Shown: piece by piece, positions 26,591-54,784 of the stretch
Position numbering within the stretch: the stretch's first letter is position 1
Layout: each line of letters begins with the position of its first letter
Assembly (NCBI GenBank): GCA_018660685.1
Contig: JABJJW010000001.1
Span: 1-64,000 of the forward strand
Length of the DNA stretch: 64,000 nt
Source: Flavobacteriales bacterium
Lineage (GTDB): Bacteria; Bacteroidota; Bacteroidia; Flavobacteriales_G; Salibacteraceae
Direction: 5' to 3'
Notes under the pieces: model-generated
Told to the model about the DNA's origin: nothing
Database searches by the model: none
Seen by the model: only the letters and a program-made list of their open reading frames with translations
Made by a program: the position numbers and the translations under genes

Positions 26591-26621
26591 AAAAAAGCCT
26601 CAGAGTAAATCCAAGGCTTCT
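26591..26621 (-). terminator. intrinsic terminator, copy A
   Basis: On the minus strand GAAGCCTTGG and CTGAGGCTT form a stem followed by T6. It is closely similar to copy B at 26736-26766, sharing the internal ATTTACTCT/ATTACTCT loop, so the two come from a duplication. Confidence 0.7.
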
Positions 26622-26735
26622 TCTATGTTGCGCCTGTCCGTCCGAAACGAAGTGGAGGCGGAGGGGCCAGACTGACTCACCTCGACTAGCTCGGCACAGG
26701 CTTCTCGTACAGCCAGGGTTCAAAGAAATTTTGAA

Positions 26736-26766
26736 ATGAAAAAGCCCCAGAGTAATTCCGAGGCTT
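26736..26766 (-). terminator. intrinsic terminator of tRNA-fMet, copy B
   Basis: On the minus strand AAGCCTCGG and CTGGGGCTT pair with wobble, followed by TTTTTCA. It lies 9 nt after the 3' end of the tRNA. Confidence 0.75.
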
Positions 26767-49023: not shown

Positions 49024-49956
49024 CTAATTTTTGCGCAAAGTTGGCAAATCAGGAAGGTTTAAGCCCATCGTTTTTTTCTCTTCCTCTTTGATTGGGTTGA
49101 GACCCGCTTGGAGAAAGCGATAGCTGTCCAATGAATAAATGATTTCGTAGCCCAATGGCAAGTAATGAGACCTAATAATGGTTGCCAAGTCATTCTCAGT
49201 TGACCTAAATGCTCTCTTCTTAATCAGAGAATACAGCTCATTTCCTTCTGCATCAAACACAGTGAAATGAACCTTGATCAATCGACCATAGTTATCCTGC
49301 TCAAAATCGCGATAGTCAGTTGAGGTCGCGACCATGTCAAGCTCATTCATAATGACGAAATAATCCGCTTCATATTTTGGAGTGAGCGAGTCGATCAAAA
49401 TTGGATTCAAGATTTTACAAGTAGTGATCAATTCTCTGGTTTCCTCATGGCTGATCAACTGCCCTTTTTCTACTCGAGTGCCTGGCTCAGGTTCTTCGAT
49501 CATTTCAGACTGCAGTTTCACCCAATAGGAAGACAGCCTCTTCTTAAATCCTTTATCATCCTCAATTACAGGAGCCACATAGGGTATGATTGGGTTCTTC
49601 GTCACCTTGTATAGGAAGTCCAAATCCATATTCAACTCAGGATTATCAGCATGAAGATTCACATAGTTATTGTGCTCCTTGGCTGCAATGATGATGGCAT
49701 TGTCCAATCCTTTTCTGAAAAATCCGCGAGTATGTTGATAGGTATAGTTAGTTCCCTTAGCAATTTCATGATCGATTTGAGACATGTAGCGATCGGGATG
49801 GAACGGAGCAATCAAGAGTTTAGGTCGCTCCAACATGGCAATGCTATCACGATAAAACCCAAGGTAGAGTGAGTCATTGGTCGGGCCGTAATCAGTGACC
49901 TGAGCGACACTCCCAAATCCTATCAATAACATCAACCCCGAAAGGAATTTCTTCAT
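49024..49956 (-). CDS. exported hypothetical protein
   Basis: This 310-residue protein has a signal peptide ending near GSVAQ (residue 19). The body has no enzyme or repeat motif I recognise: mixed helix and strand, one block KLLIAPFHPDRYMSQIDHEIAKGTN, and an ending with many Lys/Glu. No lipobox is present and there is no T9SS domain, so it is likely periplasmic or outer-membrane associated. It is 3 nt from fbp, in the same direction and first in that transcript. Homologs, from memory, are Bacteroidota-specific hypothetical proteins; no role can be given. Confidence 0.7.
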   Translation of the reverse strand: MKKFLSGLMLLIGFGSVAQVTDYGPTNDSLYLGFYRDSIAMLERPKLLIAPFHPDRYMSQIDHEIAKGTNYTYQHTRGFFRKGLDNAIIIAAKEHNNYVNLHADNPELNMDLDFLYKVTKNPIIPYVAPVIEDDKGFKKRLSSYWVKLQSEMIEEPEPGTRVEKGQLISHEETRELITTCKILNPILIDSLTPKYEADYFVIMNELDMVATSTDYRDFEQDNYGRLIKVHFTVFDAEGNELYSLIKKRAFRSTENDLATIIRSHYLPLGYEIIYSLDSYRFLQAGLNPIKEEEKKTMGLNLPDLPTLRKN

Positions 49957-50084
49957 GCTACTAAGCTAGCCTCATCCTCGATCTGTTCTCAGAATTTGCA
50001 TCTGCTTTTACAACACTCAATTGTGAACTGATTCGAGACAGTTTAGGCCTTGATTTCGGCAATGATCGAAGTGTTTCGGCTTTA

Positions 50085-50092
50085 TACCTTTG
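50085..50092 (+). promoter_or_regulatory. -7 promoter element of the hmgA-hpd operon
   Basis: TACCTTTG is an exact match to TAnnTTTG, 19 nt before the hmgA ATG. A possible -33 box is TTTCGG at 50074-50079, but its spacing is short. Confidence 0.5.
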
Positions 50093-50111
50093 CGTAACAA
50101 AATTCAACTGA

Positions 50112-51269
50112 ATGCCTTTTTATCACAAGCTAGGAAAGATTCCACCGAAGAGACACACCCAGTTTCGCCAAGAAGATGGATCTCTCTATCAGGAACAACT
50201 GTTCGGCACCGTAGGTTTCGATGGAATGTCAAGCAATCTCTACCATGTACACGCCCCAACACGCGTAACCGCTGTTGATGAACCGATTAGCATGAAGCCT
50301 GAAATTGCAGTTGAAAACAACATGACTTCGCGCATGCTTCGTGGCTGGGATGTAGAGCCAAAGGATGACTATCTCGAAAGCCGAGTACCAATGTTGGTCA
50401 ATAAGGATGTGCAGTTAATCCTTTCAGCTCCTAGAAAGTCGCTCACAGAATACTTCTACAAAAACACGGACAGCGACGAGTTAATCTTCATACACAAAGG
50501 CACTGGGAAGCTCAGAACATTTATGGGCAACATCGATTTTAAATACGGTGACTATCTTCTCATTCCTCGTGGAATGATTTATCAGATTCAATTTGATGGT
50601 GAAGACAACCGGTTATTCATCACTGAATCACGCCAGCCGATTTATACTCCTAAGCGATATCGGAATTGGTTTGGACAATTGTTAGAACATTCTCCATTCT
50701 GTGAGAGGGACATGCGTGCACCGACTGAGTTGGAAACATTCAATGAAAAAGGGGAATTCATCCTCAAGGTTAAAAAACAAGATGCTCTGCATACCTTAAC
50801 CTATGATCGTCATCCTTTTGATGTCGTTGGTTGGGACGGTTACAATTTCCCATATGCGTTCAGCATACATGACTTTGAACCCCTCACGGGTAGAGTGCAC
50901 CAACCACCCCCCGTACACCAAACATTTGAGACATCAACTTTCGTGGTTTGCTCTTTTGTGCCGAGATTATACGACTACCATCCAGAGGCCATTCCAGCTC
51001 CTTACAATCACAGCAACATTGACTCCGACGAAGTTCTTTACTATGTTGATGGAGACTTCATGAGCCGAAATCATGTGGAAAAAGGGTATATTTCCTTGCA
51101 TCCAGCTGGAATTCCACATGGTCCACATCCTGGCGCAATGGAAAGGAGCATTGGGCAAAAAGAAACTGGAGAACTAGCCGTCATGGTGGATACGTTTGCA
51201 CCTCTTCAAGTGACGAAGCAAGCCCTCGGCATCAATGATGACACTTATTGGAATAGTTGGATTGATTGA
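50112..51269 (+). CDS. hmgA: homogentisate 1,2-dioxygenase
   Basis: This non-heme Fe(II) enzyme opens homogentisate to maleylacetoacetate in tyrosine and phenylalanine degradation. The 385 residues give the shorter Bacteroidota form (proteobacterial enzymes have about 430-440). The C-terminal cupin holds the iron ligands: His and Glu in YNHSNIDSDEVLYYVDGDF and His in LHPAGIPHGPHPG. The N-terminal beta-sandwich has YLLIPRGMIYQI. The next enzyme gene downstream, hpd, makes its substrate, and a four-helix-bundle ORF lies between the two. Maleylacetoacetate isomerase and fumarylacetoacetase genes are not in the window. Confidence 0.95.
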   Translation: MPFYHKLGKIPPKRHTQFRQEDGSLYQEQLFGTVGFDGMSSNLYHVHAPTRVTAVDEPISMKPEIAVENNMTSRMLRGWDVEPKDDYLESRVPMLVNKDVQLILSAPRKSLTEYFYKNTDSDELIFIHKGTGKLRTFMGNIDFKYGDYLLIPRGMIYQIQFDGEDNRLFITESRQPIYTPKRYRNWFGQLLEHSPFCERDMRAPTELETFNEKGEFILKVKKQDALHTLTYDRHPFDVVGWDGYNFPYAFSIHDFEPLTGRVHQPPPVHQTFETSTFVVCSFVPRLYDYHPEAIPAPYNHSNIDSDEVLYYVDGDFMSRNHVEKGYISLHPAGIPHGPHPGAMERSIGQKETGELAVMVDTFAPLQVTKQALGINDDTYWNSWID

Positions 51270-51286
51270 TAATTTGAGGATGAGTA

Positions 51287-51302
51287 GATTAGATGATTAG
51301 AA
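51287..51302 (+). repeat. left arm of an RNA-level inverted repeat flanking the four-helix-bundle gene
   Basis: GATTAGATGATTAGAA pairs along its whole length (16 of 16 positions, five of them G-U) with 51723-51738. It ends 1 nt before the GTG start codon of the ORF and contains the doublet GATTAG. Confidence 0.6.
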
Positions 51303-51303
51303 T

Positions 51304-51717
51304 GTGAGTGCTGAGAATGAAAATATAGATTCAAAAGAATTGGTCAGAGAACCATTGAATGATCGATACAGTAACAATGCGATAATCAAACGATGTTTGG
51401 ATTTTTCGGTCAACTTAGTTGGGTATTGCGAGCTTTTGGAGAAGGACCGAAAGTTTGTGATTTCAAAACAGTTGTTAGCATCAGGAACGAGTATAGGAGC
51501 CAATTCGATAGAGGCCCAAAATGCTGAAAGCACAAAGCACTTCATCAGCAAATTCAAGATCGCAATACGTGAAGCAGACGAAACAGCCTATTGGCTAGAG
51601 ATTTGTCTCAGATCAAAATCATATCAATCACCGCCTGCTGATCTCTCGCTTGAGTTGGAGGCAAATACAAGAATGATAAACAAGATAATATCGACTTCTA
51701 CAAAACATTTAAAATGA
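51304..51717 (+). CDS. four-helix bundle protein (23S rRNA intervening-sequence / S23 type)
   Basis: This 137-residue, all-helical protein is of the family encoded in the intervening sequences (IVS) of some 23S rRNA genes. Family markers are the helix LVREPLNDRYSNNAIIKRCLDF, KQLLASGTSIGANSIEAQNAES, FISKFKIAIREADETAYWLEI and the final helix LELEANTRMINKIISTS. The start is GTG 51304. The proteins form pentamers that bind nucleic acid; the bAvd protein of diversity-generating retroelements is a relative. It is flanked by complementary arms at 51287-51302 and 51723-51738, making the ORF the loop of a stem. It sits between hmgA and hpd, where it has no metabolic reason to be. Confidence 0.85.
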   Translation: MSAENENIDSKELVREPLNDRYSNNAIIKRCLDFSVNLVGYCELLEKDRKFVISKQLLASGTSIGANSIEAQNAESTKHFISKFKIAIREADETAYWLEICLRSKSYQSPPADLSLELEANTRMINKIISTSTKHLK

Positions 51718-51722
51718 CAATT

Positions 51723-51738
51723 TTCTGATTGTCTGATT
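51723..51738 (+). repeat. right arm of the inverted repeat flanking the four-helix-bundle gene
   Basis: TTCTGATTGTCTGATT begins 5 nt after the ORF's stop codon and pairs with the left arm at 51287-51302. A further CTGATT follows at 51748-51753. All mismatches to a perfect DNA inverted repeat are transitions that keep pairing as G-U in RNA. Confidence 0.6.
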
Positions 51739-51758
51739 AATAATAATCTGATTTAAAA

Positions 51759-52907
51759 ATGGACACAGCCAAACTCCGCAACGTTACCTACGGAACGGAC
51801 AAGATTTTCGAAGATGCAAAAGACTTCCTACCTCTACTCGGTACTGACTATGTCGAGCTCATAGTTGGAAACGCAAAACAATCTGCTCTTTTTTATAAAA
51901 CTGCCTTCGGCTTTCAATCACATGCATACGCTGGCCTTGAAACCGGTGTAACTGACCGCACATCGTACGTCCTAAAGCAGGACAAGATTCGATTAGTGCT
52001 CACTACGCCAATGGAGCAAGATGGTTGGATGAACGAACATCTCAACAAGCATGGTGATGGCGTGAAAGTCGTCGCTCTTTGGGTTGATGACGCGACCAAG
52101 GCTTGGGAAGAAACAACATCTCGAGGCGCGAAAAGCTTCTTGGAACCAGTCAGAGAAGAAGACGAGAACGGATTCGTAGTTCGATCCGGAATCCATACTT
52201 ATGGCGAGACCATTCACATTTTTGTAGAAAGAGGAGAATATAATGGAGTATTCCTCCCTGGTTTCAAGAAATGGGAGTCGCATTATAATCCAGCGCCAGT
52301 TGGACTGAAGTTCATCGATCACATGGTTGGCAATGTTGACTGGGGTGAGATGAATACGTGGGTTGACTTTTACGCCAAAGTGATGGGATTCGCCCAGATT
52401 GTCACCTTCGATGACAAAGACATTTCAACGGAATACACAGCCTTGATGAGTAAGGTCATGTCCAACGGAAATGGCCGTATTAAGTTCCCAATCAACGAAC
52501 CGGCTGAAGGCCGCAAGAAGTCTCAAATCGAAGAGTACATTGAGTTCTATAAAGGAGCGGGTGTCCAACATATTGCCGTGGCAACAGATGACATTGTAAC
52601 GACCGTTACTGCCATGAGAGATCGTGGTGTGGAATTCCTCTATGTTCCAGATAATTATTATGATGATCTGAAAGATCGGGTCGGAGAAATTGATGAAGAC
52701 ATCAATGTGCTTAAGGAACATGGCATCTTAGTCGATCGAGACGATGAAGGCTACTTGCTTCAGCTCTTTACAAAACCGGTCGTCGATAGGCCGACCATGT
52801 TCTTTGAAATCATTCAGAGAAAAGGGGCATGGAGTTTTGGAAAAGGAAACTTTCAGGCCTTGTTTGAAGCTATTGAAAGAGAACAAGAAAACAGAGGCAC
52901 ACTCTAA
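51759..52907 (+). CDS. hpd: 4-hydroxyphenylpyruvate dioxygenase
   Basis: This Fe(II) enzyme converts 4-hydroxyphenylpyruvate to homogentisate. The 382 residues form two vicinal-oxygen-chelate halves. Iron ligands are His188 (KFIDHMVGN), His271 (GVQHIAVAT) and Glu350 (MFFEIIQRKG). The C-terminal gate helix has GNFQALFEAIEREQ. It follows hmgA in the same direction, with the four-helix-bundle ORF between, and together they make the tyrosine degradation operon. The gap before the start is 41 nt and contains the right arm of the inverted repeat. An intrinsic terminator ends the operon at 52915. Confidence 0.96.
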   Translation: MDTAKLRNVTYGTDKIFEDAKDFLPLLGTDYVELIVGNAKQSALFYKTAFGFQSHAYAGLETGVTDRTSYVLKQDKIRLVLTTPMEQDGWMNEHLNKHGDGVKVVALWVDDATKAWEETTSRGAKSFLEPVREEDENGFVVRSGIHTYGETIHIFVERGEYNGVFLPGFKKWESHYNPAPVGLKFIDHMVGNVDWGEMNTWVDFYAKVMGFAQIVTFDDKDISTEYTALMSKVMSNGNGRIKFPINEPAEGRKKSQIEEYIEFYKGAGVQHIAVATDDIVTTVTAMRDRGVEFLYVPDNYYDDLKDRVGEIDEDINVLKEHGILVDRDDEGYLLQLFTKPVVDRPTMFFEIIQRKGAWSFGKGNFQALFEAIEREQENRGTL

Positions 52908-52914
52908 ACTACGA

Positions 52915-52938
52915 CCCCGGCACTGACCGGGGTTTTTT
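52915..52938 (+). terminator. intrinsic terminator of the hmgA-hpd operon
   Basis: CCCCGG (52915-52920) and CCGGGG (52927-52932) form a GC-rich stem with a 6-nt loop, followed by TTTTTT. Its T-tract touches the end of the convergent ClC gene. Confidence 0.9.
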
Positions 52939-54784
52939 ATTCGTTATAAAATTCCTTGAGCATATTGCGATAGGCACTAAACAACTTGGATTTCGAGACG
53001 AATCCCATGTAGTGTCCTTGATCATCGAGAACGGGTAAGTTCCAAGCCCCGCTCTGCTCAAATTTGTTCATCACAATTTCCATTGTGTCTTCTTTCCTCA
53101 CGTATTCAGGTGCATCGTTCATTAGATCATGAACGTATGTCGTATCGTACAACTCTTGATTGAAGATGATTTGCCGCACCTCGTTCAAGTTGACAACGCC
53201 TATGAAGTTTCGATTGTCGTCAATAACTGGAAAGAGGTTTCTTTTTGATGTCGAAATAACCTTCACCAAATCTCGTAGCTTGCTGTATGGGTCCACTGTG
53301 GTAAAGTCGGTTTCAATTTCTCTATGCAAACGCATCAAGGTTAGAACGGCTTGATCCTTATCGTGGGTGATTAATTCGCCTCTCCGTGCGAGCTGTGCGG
53401 TATATATGCTGTGTGGGGTGAACTGCTTCACCGTAACAAATGCAATGGAAGCTGTGATCATCAATGGCACGAAAAGTTCATATCCTCCTGTGATTTCTGC
53501 GATGAGGAATATTGCCGTCAACGGTGCATGTAGGTTTCCTGCCATCATGCCTGCCATAGCGACTAGGGTAAAATTCGCCTCGGGCAAGTCCCCAAGCTCG
53601 AAGTAATTGACTGTGCGAGAAAAGAAGAAACCATACATCGCTCCCATAAAGAGGGTTGGTCCAAAGGTTCCTCCAACACCGCCTGCCTGGAATGTGAGTG
53701 TAGTCGCAACAATTTTCATTAGGCCTAACAGAAGGACAAAAGCGAGTAAAACAAAAATATTTTCGGAATATGAAGAGAATAGCGAACTGGCCATGATCTG
53801 CTCTGGATGACCTCCGATAATGGCATTGACAGCTTCGTATCCCTCACCATACAACGGTGGCAAGAGAAACAAAAGGCCGCCTAGGAGAGAACCGGCAATC
53901 ATGGTTTTATTGCGCTGTCTCTTCATCTTGTCCATGATCTTGTTCACCTGAGTATAGGAACGGAAGAAGAGGATAGACGTTAGCCCTGTAAACACACCCA
54001 ATCCTAAGTAAAATGGGATGTGGCCGAATTCAAACTCTTCCGTAATATCAAAGTGAAAGAGAATGGTATCACCTAAAAAGAACATGGACGTAATGGCTGC
54101 TGAAGCACTCGCAAGTAACAATGGAATCAGCGAGGCCGTCGTCAAATCAAGCATAATCACCTCAATTGCAAATACAATCGCCGCCACTGGAGCGTTGAAG
54201 AGCGAAGCCATTGCGCCAGCAGCTGCACACCCAATCAATAATGTTCGGGTTTTATAAGGTAGCTTGAATAGCGTCCCAAGATTTGCGCCCCACGCAGAGG
54301 TAGTTCCAACGGTTGGACCCTCGAGACCAACACTACCTCCAAAGCCAACGGTTGCGGCCGCAGCTACTATGGATGACCACAAATTGTGCTTCCTTATTAA
54401 TGCGTTTTTTCTTGAAATGGCGTGAAGCGTATTCGGAATTCCGTGGTTGATTCGCTGCTTGACTACTTTTCTAACAAGCCATTGTACGATGAGAATGCCA
54501 ACAACTGGGTAGAATATATAGAGCACAAACTCGTAGCGTTGGAAGAAGCTCTTCGTAAGAATGAGCTGAATAAAGTGGACAGAGTTCTTAATGATCAATG
54601 CAACAATTCCCGAGAGAAACCCGACTGCGATAGCCAGTACATAAGTGAATTGCTTTTCACTTAGATTATCTCGCCTCCATTTGTTGAATGCCCCAATGAA
54701 ACGATAGAAACCGGTGTTGGCTCCCCTCAGATAAGGATGAACCTGGGATTTGGTTTTATCGTAAAATTCGGATGCTTTAGACAC
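52937..54784 (-). CDS. ClC-type chloride channel/transporter with C-terminal CBS domains
   Basis: This 615-residue inner-membrane protein is of the ClC family with about ten to twelve hydrophobic helices (about 45-440) and a cytoplasmic CBS pair (about 470-600). The selectivity and gating motif GSVGLEGPTVG keeps the external gating Glu. PLTAIFLIAEITGGYELFVPL is the later conserved helix. CBS1 (DFTTVDPYSKLRDLVKVI) and CBS2 (EYVRKEDTMEIVMNKF) could bind adenine nucleotides. Whether it is a Cl-/H+ exchanger or a channel cannot be told. It is convergent with hpd and is followed, upstream in transcription, by aspS 10 nt away, so it is probably co-transcribed after aspS. Confidence 0.93.
   Translation of the reverse strand: MSKASEFYDKTKSQVHPYLRGANTGFYRFIGAFNKWRRDNLSEKQFTYVLAIAVGFLSGIVALIIKNSVHFIQLILTKSFFQRYEFVLYIFYPVVGILIVQWLVRKVVKQRINHGIPNTLHAISRKNALIRKHNLWSSIVAAAATVGFGGSVGLEGPTVGTTSAWGANLGTLFKLPYKTRTLLIGCAAAGAMASLFNAPVAAIVFAIEVIMLDLTTASLIPLLLASASAAITSMFFLGDTILFHFDITEEFEFGHIPFYLGLGVFTGLTSILFFRSYTQVNKIMDKMKRQRNKTMIAGSLLGGLLFLLPPLYGEGYEAVNAIIGGHPEQIMASSLFSSYSENIFVLLAFVLLLGLMKIVATTLTFQAGGVGGTFGPTLFMGAMYGFFFSRTVNYFELGDLPEANFTLVAMAGMMAGNLHAPLTAIFLIAEITGGYELFVPLMITASIAFVTVKQFTPHSIYTAQLARRGELITHDKDQAVLTLMRLHREIETDFTTVDPYSKLRDLVKVISTSKRNLFPVIDDNRNFIGVVNLNEVRQIIFNQELYDTTYVHDLMNDAPEYVRKEDTMEIVMNKFEQSGAWNLPVLDDQGHYMGFVSKSKLFSAYRNMLKEFYNE

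Follow-up and report, generated by a model that had tools for sequence, protein, structure and literature searches.

A PF05635 gene between inverted arms in the hmgA-hpd operon of a Flavobacteriales bacterium: one copy of a widespread and probably mobile DNA cassette

What is a small four-helix-bundle gene doing between two complementary arms inside a two-gene tyrosine operon? The question is raised by a window of 64,000 nucleotides (nt) from a Flavobacteriales bacterium (GCA_018660685.1, contig JABJJW010000001.1, positions 1 to 64,000), in which an open reading frame (ORF) of the PF05635 family lies between hmgA and hpd, enclosed by arms that can form a 16-bp stem. The original prediction had read this arrangement as the mRNA counterpart of a 23S rRNA intervening sequence (IVS), with selection acting on the RNA stem. 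The analysis described here leads to a different answer: with a probability of about 0.65, this is one copy of a small and widely distributed DNA cassette, mobile or formerly mobile, whose gene is read from the host operon and encodes a protein that recognises the cassette's own heptad arrays.

The answer came from looking at the family as a whole. The collection drew on the bacterium's own genome, which holds three PF05635 genes, on 60 relatives, on 296 genomes sampled in its phylum and on named representatives of many phyla; 247 Spirochaetota genomes were added as the phylum of a Treponema record. In 111 loci the best duplex between the upstream and downstream flank was scored, with a threshold of at least 30. 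This score was reached by 71 of the 111 (64%), as opposed to 5 of 444 swapped flanks (1.1%; Fisher 4e-54) and 0.6% of 165 control stretches of matching geometry taken from other parts of these loci. The proportion was 76% for the 54 Bacteroidota loci, 57% (17 of 30 loci) in a separate sample of the phylum, 66% for 29 Spirochaetota loci, 73% for 22 loci from Clostridia, the Candidate Phyla Radiation (CPR), Planctomycetota, Acidobacteria, Gammaproteobacteria and others, and 76% for 29 loci of 14 non-Bacteroidota genomes, a sample that overlaps partly with the preceding one. The proteins themselves are common, being present in 235 of the 296 genomes sampled in the phylum. The cassette with paired arms that had been proposed for this operon is thereby borne out: pairing occurs in most free-standing homologues, where the original prediction had suggested looking for it, and is a hallmark of these genes. 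Because most members of the family, in many phyla, lie between inverted repeats in the same way, the heptad-armed PF05635 cassette stands out as a probable small mobile element of a type that has scarcely been described.

The arms have a regular internal structure that the original prediction had missed. They are inverted, degenerate tandem arrays with a period of 7 nt, sometimes 8 nt; in the autocorrelation of the flanks, lags 7, 8 and 14 stand out, the first of them with 0.36/0.35 vs 0.25 in control stretches, and the best lag in the paired left arms was 7 in 42 and 8 in 13 of the 66. The repeat word differs from lineage to lineage: one locus (L011) has TTAGGTG-TTAGGTA-TTAGGAC and its complement, with 33 of 34 positions paired, and another (L035) has arrays of GGTGACT. 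Among pairs with unrelated flanks the words track the proteins (Mantel r 0.10, 2 of 1000 permutations), and the similarity of the arms at unrelated loci rises with protein identity, from 0.20 below 40% through 0.31 at 60-70% to 0.47 at 70% or more, the last value coming from only 4 pairs. GGGATTAG at recJ hinted that the word might be a copy of the final letters of the preceding host gene; this idea was rejected, since the other word family also occupies that junction and the recJ word is found again at moxR. A planctomycete locus (L195:2467-2869) has arms of about 140 nt made of GGTGGAC-type heptads, nearly fully paired, with a score of 214. In Treponema-group genomes (L413/L431 and L414/L432) the ORF stands between two complete heptad hairpins, not within one split hairpin.

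Is the pairing kept by selection on the RNA, as had been proposed from the departures from a perfect repeat in the window, all of which preserve RNA pairing? The reasoning applied was that selected pairing in the mRNA should favour G-U over A-C among the departures from perfect complementarity. At scores of at least 30, the ratios of G-U to A-C were 143:161, 30:36 and 80:119 in three samples, or 253:316 when pooled, a deviation (p 0.009) toward A-C and so opposite to that expected from RNA selection. In 16 groups of orthologs, the two arms of one copy paired no better than a left arm with the right arm of another species (Wilcoxon p = 0.73), and no compensatory change was seen among the orthologous arms. 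Selection at the RNA level was rejected on the G-U/A-C symmetry together with the lack of compensatory change, and concerted evolution of the two arms on the equality of within-copy and cross-ortholog pairing; the proposed selection is not supported. Because there is no G-U excess and no better pairing within copies, the arms look like inverted repeats of DNA whose two halves arose at the same time and have drifted since. Selection is not seen to maintain the pairing, and with so few changes in the window its five G-U pairs are most readily put down to chance.

The history of the site could be followed within the genus, where, as anticipated, hmgA-hpd was found with and without the insert. The gap between the two genes is 14-15 nt in four genomes (G002, G005, G006 and G011); the ORF is present in the bacterium's own genome (G000), G003 and G012, and frame-broken in G010; a gap of 93-94 nt in G007 and G009 holds right-arm words only, and three further genomes have gaps of 46-148 nt with no ORF. 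Empty, ORF-bearing, decayed and arm-only states are all represented, and the insert is a discrete unit. Its proteins fall in one loosely supported clade (84/82) that includes copies at other loci and in other families. The clearest case of cassette-only identity is a pair of Treponema-group loci (L431 and L433) that are 88% identical over just 502 bp, namely the ORF and its arms, with unrelated flanks. The sole large difference between two orthologous loci of 96% identity (L430/L434) is 39 nt in the left arm; here the hairpin and AGGAGG upstream of the ORF are found a second time, as a direct repeat ahead of the gene that follows, and recombination across this two-hairpin layout could yield copies lacking the ORF. 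A pair of Calothrix plasmids was dropped as evidence of movement at the level of the cassette, as longer flanks are shared; in these plasmids (L241, L242) the gene comes directly after a gene of the phage-integrase family, within a longer shared segment. Carriage by phages was also considered and set aside, there being no match among phage records.

Companions without an ORF were followed at two junctions, recJ-nadD and moxR-DUF58 (gene names read from translations), in 30 genomes each of the G267 genus. Some genomes keep a cassette with its ORF and some only the arms, as a stem-loop of 70-130 nt; others have a remnant of the right arm or just a short gap. Where an ORF copy with the word GGATTAG occupied recJ-nadD, ORF-less arms with the same word stood at moxR in four of four scored genomes, and where the ORF copy was at moxR with the word GGTWGCAG, ORF-less arms with that word were found at recJ-nadD in seven of seven, counts that are confounded across genomes by shared descent. 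Two near-empty genomes, G322 (one word hit) and G382 (no word hit), were left out of the count; the exceptions were G400, which is mixed, and G267, which has an ORF at both junctions. A 400-kb stretch of G267 contains further heptad hairpins, about 11 of them with lag 7-8 at 0.6 or more. The ORF-less hairpins listed for this stretch (L333-L352, G267:C1:4400001-4800000) have differing words, for example at 4466386, 4484553, 4675270 and 4778702, and near 4451705 lie inverted repeats of another kind, a family with the form GCTTCGAC..CAGCATGAC.

The copy in the window is an ordinary, weakened member of the family, and it is the class itself that is of interest. Its stem, formed by 51287-51302 (GATTAGATGATTAGAA) and 51723-51738 (TTCTGATTGTCTGATT) of the forward strand, was read directly as 16 RNA pairs out of 16 (5 G-U, 2 G-C and 9 A-U), as originally described, and all 16 are contained in the minimum-energy fold of 51270-51760. 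A run of at least 16 Watson-Crick or G-U pairs between the flanks arose in 8-14 of 4000 Markov shuffles (at most about 0.35%); of 4134 positions of the window compared at the geometry of this stem, 1-3 had one. A chance origin is unlikely, though the evidence from the stem alone is modest, not overwhelming, and the 60x60 duplex energy is unexceptional, with 167 of 2000 positions equal or better. Each arm of the stem consists of two octads, GATTAGAT.GATTAGAA on the left and TTCTGATT.GTCTGATT on the right. The left arm region, from the hmgA stop to the first possible start (51270-51303), contains the degenerate octads GATGAGTA, GATTAGAT and GATTAGAA, with the paired core at 51287-51302, and the right arm region, which runs to where hpd begins (51718-51758), has TTCTGATT, GTCTGATT and ATCTGATT.

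The gene between them, on the same strand at 51304-51717 (137 amino acids from the GTG at 51304), belongs to the predicted family, with 60.7 bits to PF05635 (23S_rRNA_IVP; cut-off 33.8) and 76.9 bits to TIGR02436 (cut-off 24); a solved relative is PDB 2rld (E 5e-20). The description of the arms as touching the ORF is right if the gene starts at this GTG and wrong for a start at the in-frame TTG at 51355, with which the G003 ortholog (MNDRY...) aligns at its beginning; by this alignment, the true start may lie at the TTG, 51 nt further in, and the distance between arm and gene is not constant across the family. The host genes, also on the forward strand and named from domain matches, are hmgA (homogentisate 1,2-dioxygenase family, 50112-51269) upstream and hpd (4-hydroxyphenylpyruvate dioxygenase family, with an HPPD/glyoxalase-type domain, 51759-52907) downstream. 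Since the arms are weak and the same insert has decayed in a sister species, this copy looks old and of low activity. Elsewhere in the window, at 26595-26766, there is an inverted repeat AAGCCTCAGAGTAAATCCAAGGCTTCTTC / GAAAAAGCCCCAGAGTAATTCCGAGGCTT with its halves 114 nt apart and a score of 30, near background.

How might such a cassette work? It would have a PF05635 gene in the middle and, at its two ends, inverted arrays of a degenerate word of 7-8 nt specific to the lineage of the element. The protein, probably a multimer by analogy with its solved relatives, would recognise the array of its own word at the ends and, together with a host enzyme, might promote the movement or maintenance of the cassette and its ORF-less copies. 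Placement in the sense direction would allow a promoterless gene to be read from the host operon; in 79 of the 111 loci the genes on either side run in the direction of the ORF, and in 3 both run against it. Purifying selection on the protein, at dN/dS of about 0.1, is a further point in favour of the cassette reading. The arms may fold in the mRNA too, and cutting by RNase III could then be a by-product, as in rRNA IVSs. A broader proposal is more tentative and is held at somewhat under even odds: that a distinct class of mobile element, with PF05635 genes as its coding part, spans the phyla, has lineage-specific heptad ends read by the protein and ORF-less satellites, and moves without a known transposase of its own, and that rRNA IVSs are copies of it that landed in rRNA.

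Several observations weigh against the cassette reading. About one third of the PF05635 elements have no arms over the threshold, and the window's own arms score 19 when G-U and A-C count alike, inside the control range. No ORF-less heptad hairpins were found in 416 kb of the bacterium's own genome, and the shared descent mentioned above affects the matching of words between junctions. The closest related proteins are mostly at orthologous sites, so that movement must be rare and long vertical stretches the rule, and such vertical descent also fits a domesticated function. The empty sites compared are too diverged for any target-site duplication to be read, and no recombinase activity is known for the four-helix-bundle fold.

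The rival explanations differ in what they ask of the arms. If the cassette were the mRNA version of the 23S rRNA IVS, RNase III would cut the stem in the hmgA-hpd transcript and the cassette RNA would be removed without ligation, the RNA stem being under selection. The presence of all 16 pairs in the predicted fold, the sense orientation of the gene and the precedent of the Coxiella IVS, with its heptameric repeats, bordering stem and excision by RNase III (PMC4990558), speak for this, whereas the pooled G-U and A-C counts and the orthologous arms given above speak against it, and a cut mRNA would fall apart, unlike a folded rRNA; this explanation appears unlikely. Slightly less credit is given to a domesticated part of the operon with a host function, for example as a regulator or RNA-binding protein, the arms being binding sites or an mRNA-stability hairpin. 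The protein is under purifying selection, and strongly so, with median dN/dS (ratio of nonsynonymous to synonymous substitution rates) of 0.10 (63 pairs) and 0.12 (31 pairs) at the two junctions followed above; the gene is in the sense orientation, and the same junctions recur over genera (the fad operon, hmgA-hpd, recJ-nadD and moxR-DUF58). At such junctions, proteins are sometimes less than 60% identical between flanks that are about 80% identical. A host function is harder to square with the patchy occurrence of the gene in sister species, some of which have a pseudogene or just arms, with host operons that are unrelated to each other, and with the cassette-only identity between unrelated loci.

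It is very improbable that the cassette is a satellite of some other mobile system, moved in trans by a transposase or reverse transcriptase (RT). Elements of the REP/RAYT type (repetitive extragenic palindromes and their associated tyrosine transposases) likewise join palindromes with a gene, and PF05635 proteins have a fold kinship with bAvd. These candidate movers were nevertheless rejected: RVT_1 is missing in 12 of 13 genomes of the genus, the bacterium's own (G000) included, which discounts a diversity-generating retroelement (DGR) or group II RT and makes a trans-acting DGR-type RT unlikely for the window cassette, and no Y1 transposase (TnpA_REP, PF01797) was found in G000, G003, G010 and G012, Y1_Tnp being missing from most of the genus, which discounts a RAYT.

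The reading as a mobile cassette has consequences beyond this operon. The constant architecture provides a working hypothesis for the PF05635 family, that of a terminal-repeat-binding protein of a mobile cassette, and ties the free-standing genes to the puzzling rRNA intervening sequences, making the older idea of IVSs as mobile elements testable. The lineage-specific heptad words that track the protein offer a ready assay of protein-nucleic-acid specificity.

Among known systems, the cassette shares inverted arms with classical insertion sequences, yet the only gene between the arms in the window is PF05635, with no transposase gene there. Like REP/RAYT elements (REPtrons) and miniature inverted-repeat transposable elements, it combines a gene-bearing copy with ORF-less hairpins that share the terminal sequence; it differs from them in its four-helix-bundle gene, its heptad-array ends with a lineage-specific word, and an own genome free of Y1 transposase. 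The accessory protein bAvd of DGRs belongs to the same general fold family as PF05635, but the bacterium's own genome is without an RT. The open-access papers searched yielded no account of free-standing four-helix-bundle genes flanked by inverted heptad arms, and an earlier one may exist in subscription papers or preprints, which lay outside the search. Heptamer repeats in intergenic places have been reported for Xanthomonas and Nostoc, those of Xanthomonas (GGGAATC) often as convergent pairs (PMC4692102), and TAACTGA heptamers for Beggiatoaceae and some Bacteroidetes (PMC4679880). These are 7-nt tandem units as well, though the link to PF05635 was not made in either description. As Xanthomonas has an S23p gene, its convergent arrays are possibly ORF-less arms of the same class.

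The nearest relative of the cassette is the rRNA IVS, and here the original comparison holds in part: family, stem and repeats agree, and the likeness fits as one between DNA cassettes. The 23S rRNA IVSs of Coxiella and Leptospira (PMC4990558) have a PF05635 ORF, a complementary bordering stem and a sporadic distribution, and IVP (intervening-sequence protein) ORFs occur in CPR bacteria within insertions of the 16S and 23S rRNA (PMC11270868). Unlike these, the window cassette, known here from DNA alone, lies between protein-coding operon genes and not inside an rRNA gene, with no Rfam match in 49900-53200, and none of 28 loci tested with Rfam was embedded in rRNA. Upstream of the S23p start of Coxiella the heptamer GACAGAT is repeated three times in tandem, together with one variant unit, the number varying between strains, and an older proposal that IVSs were mobile elements is cited in the same paper (PMC4990558). 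Short tandem repeats by the ORF are a feature of both, as octads in the window and heptads in the family, and since heptamers precede the S23p gene of the Coxiella IVS as well, the analogy is sound as one of DNA cassettes.
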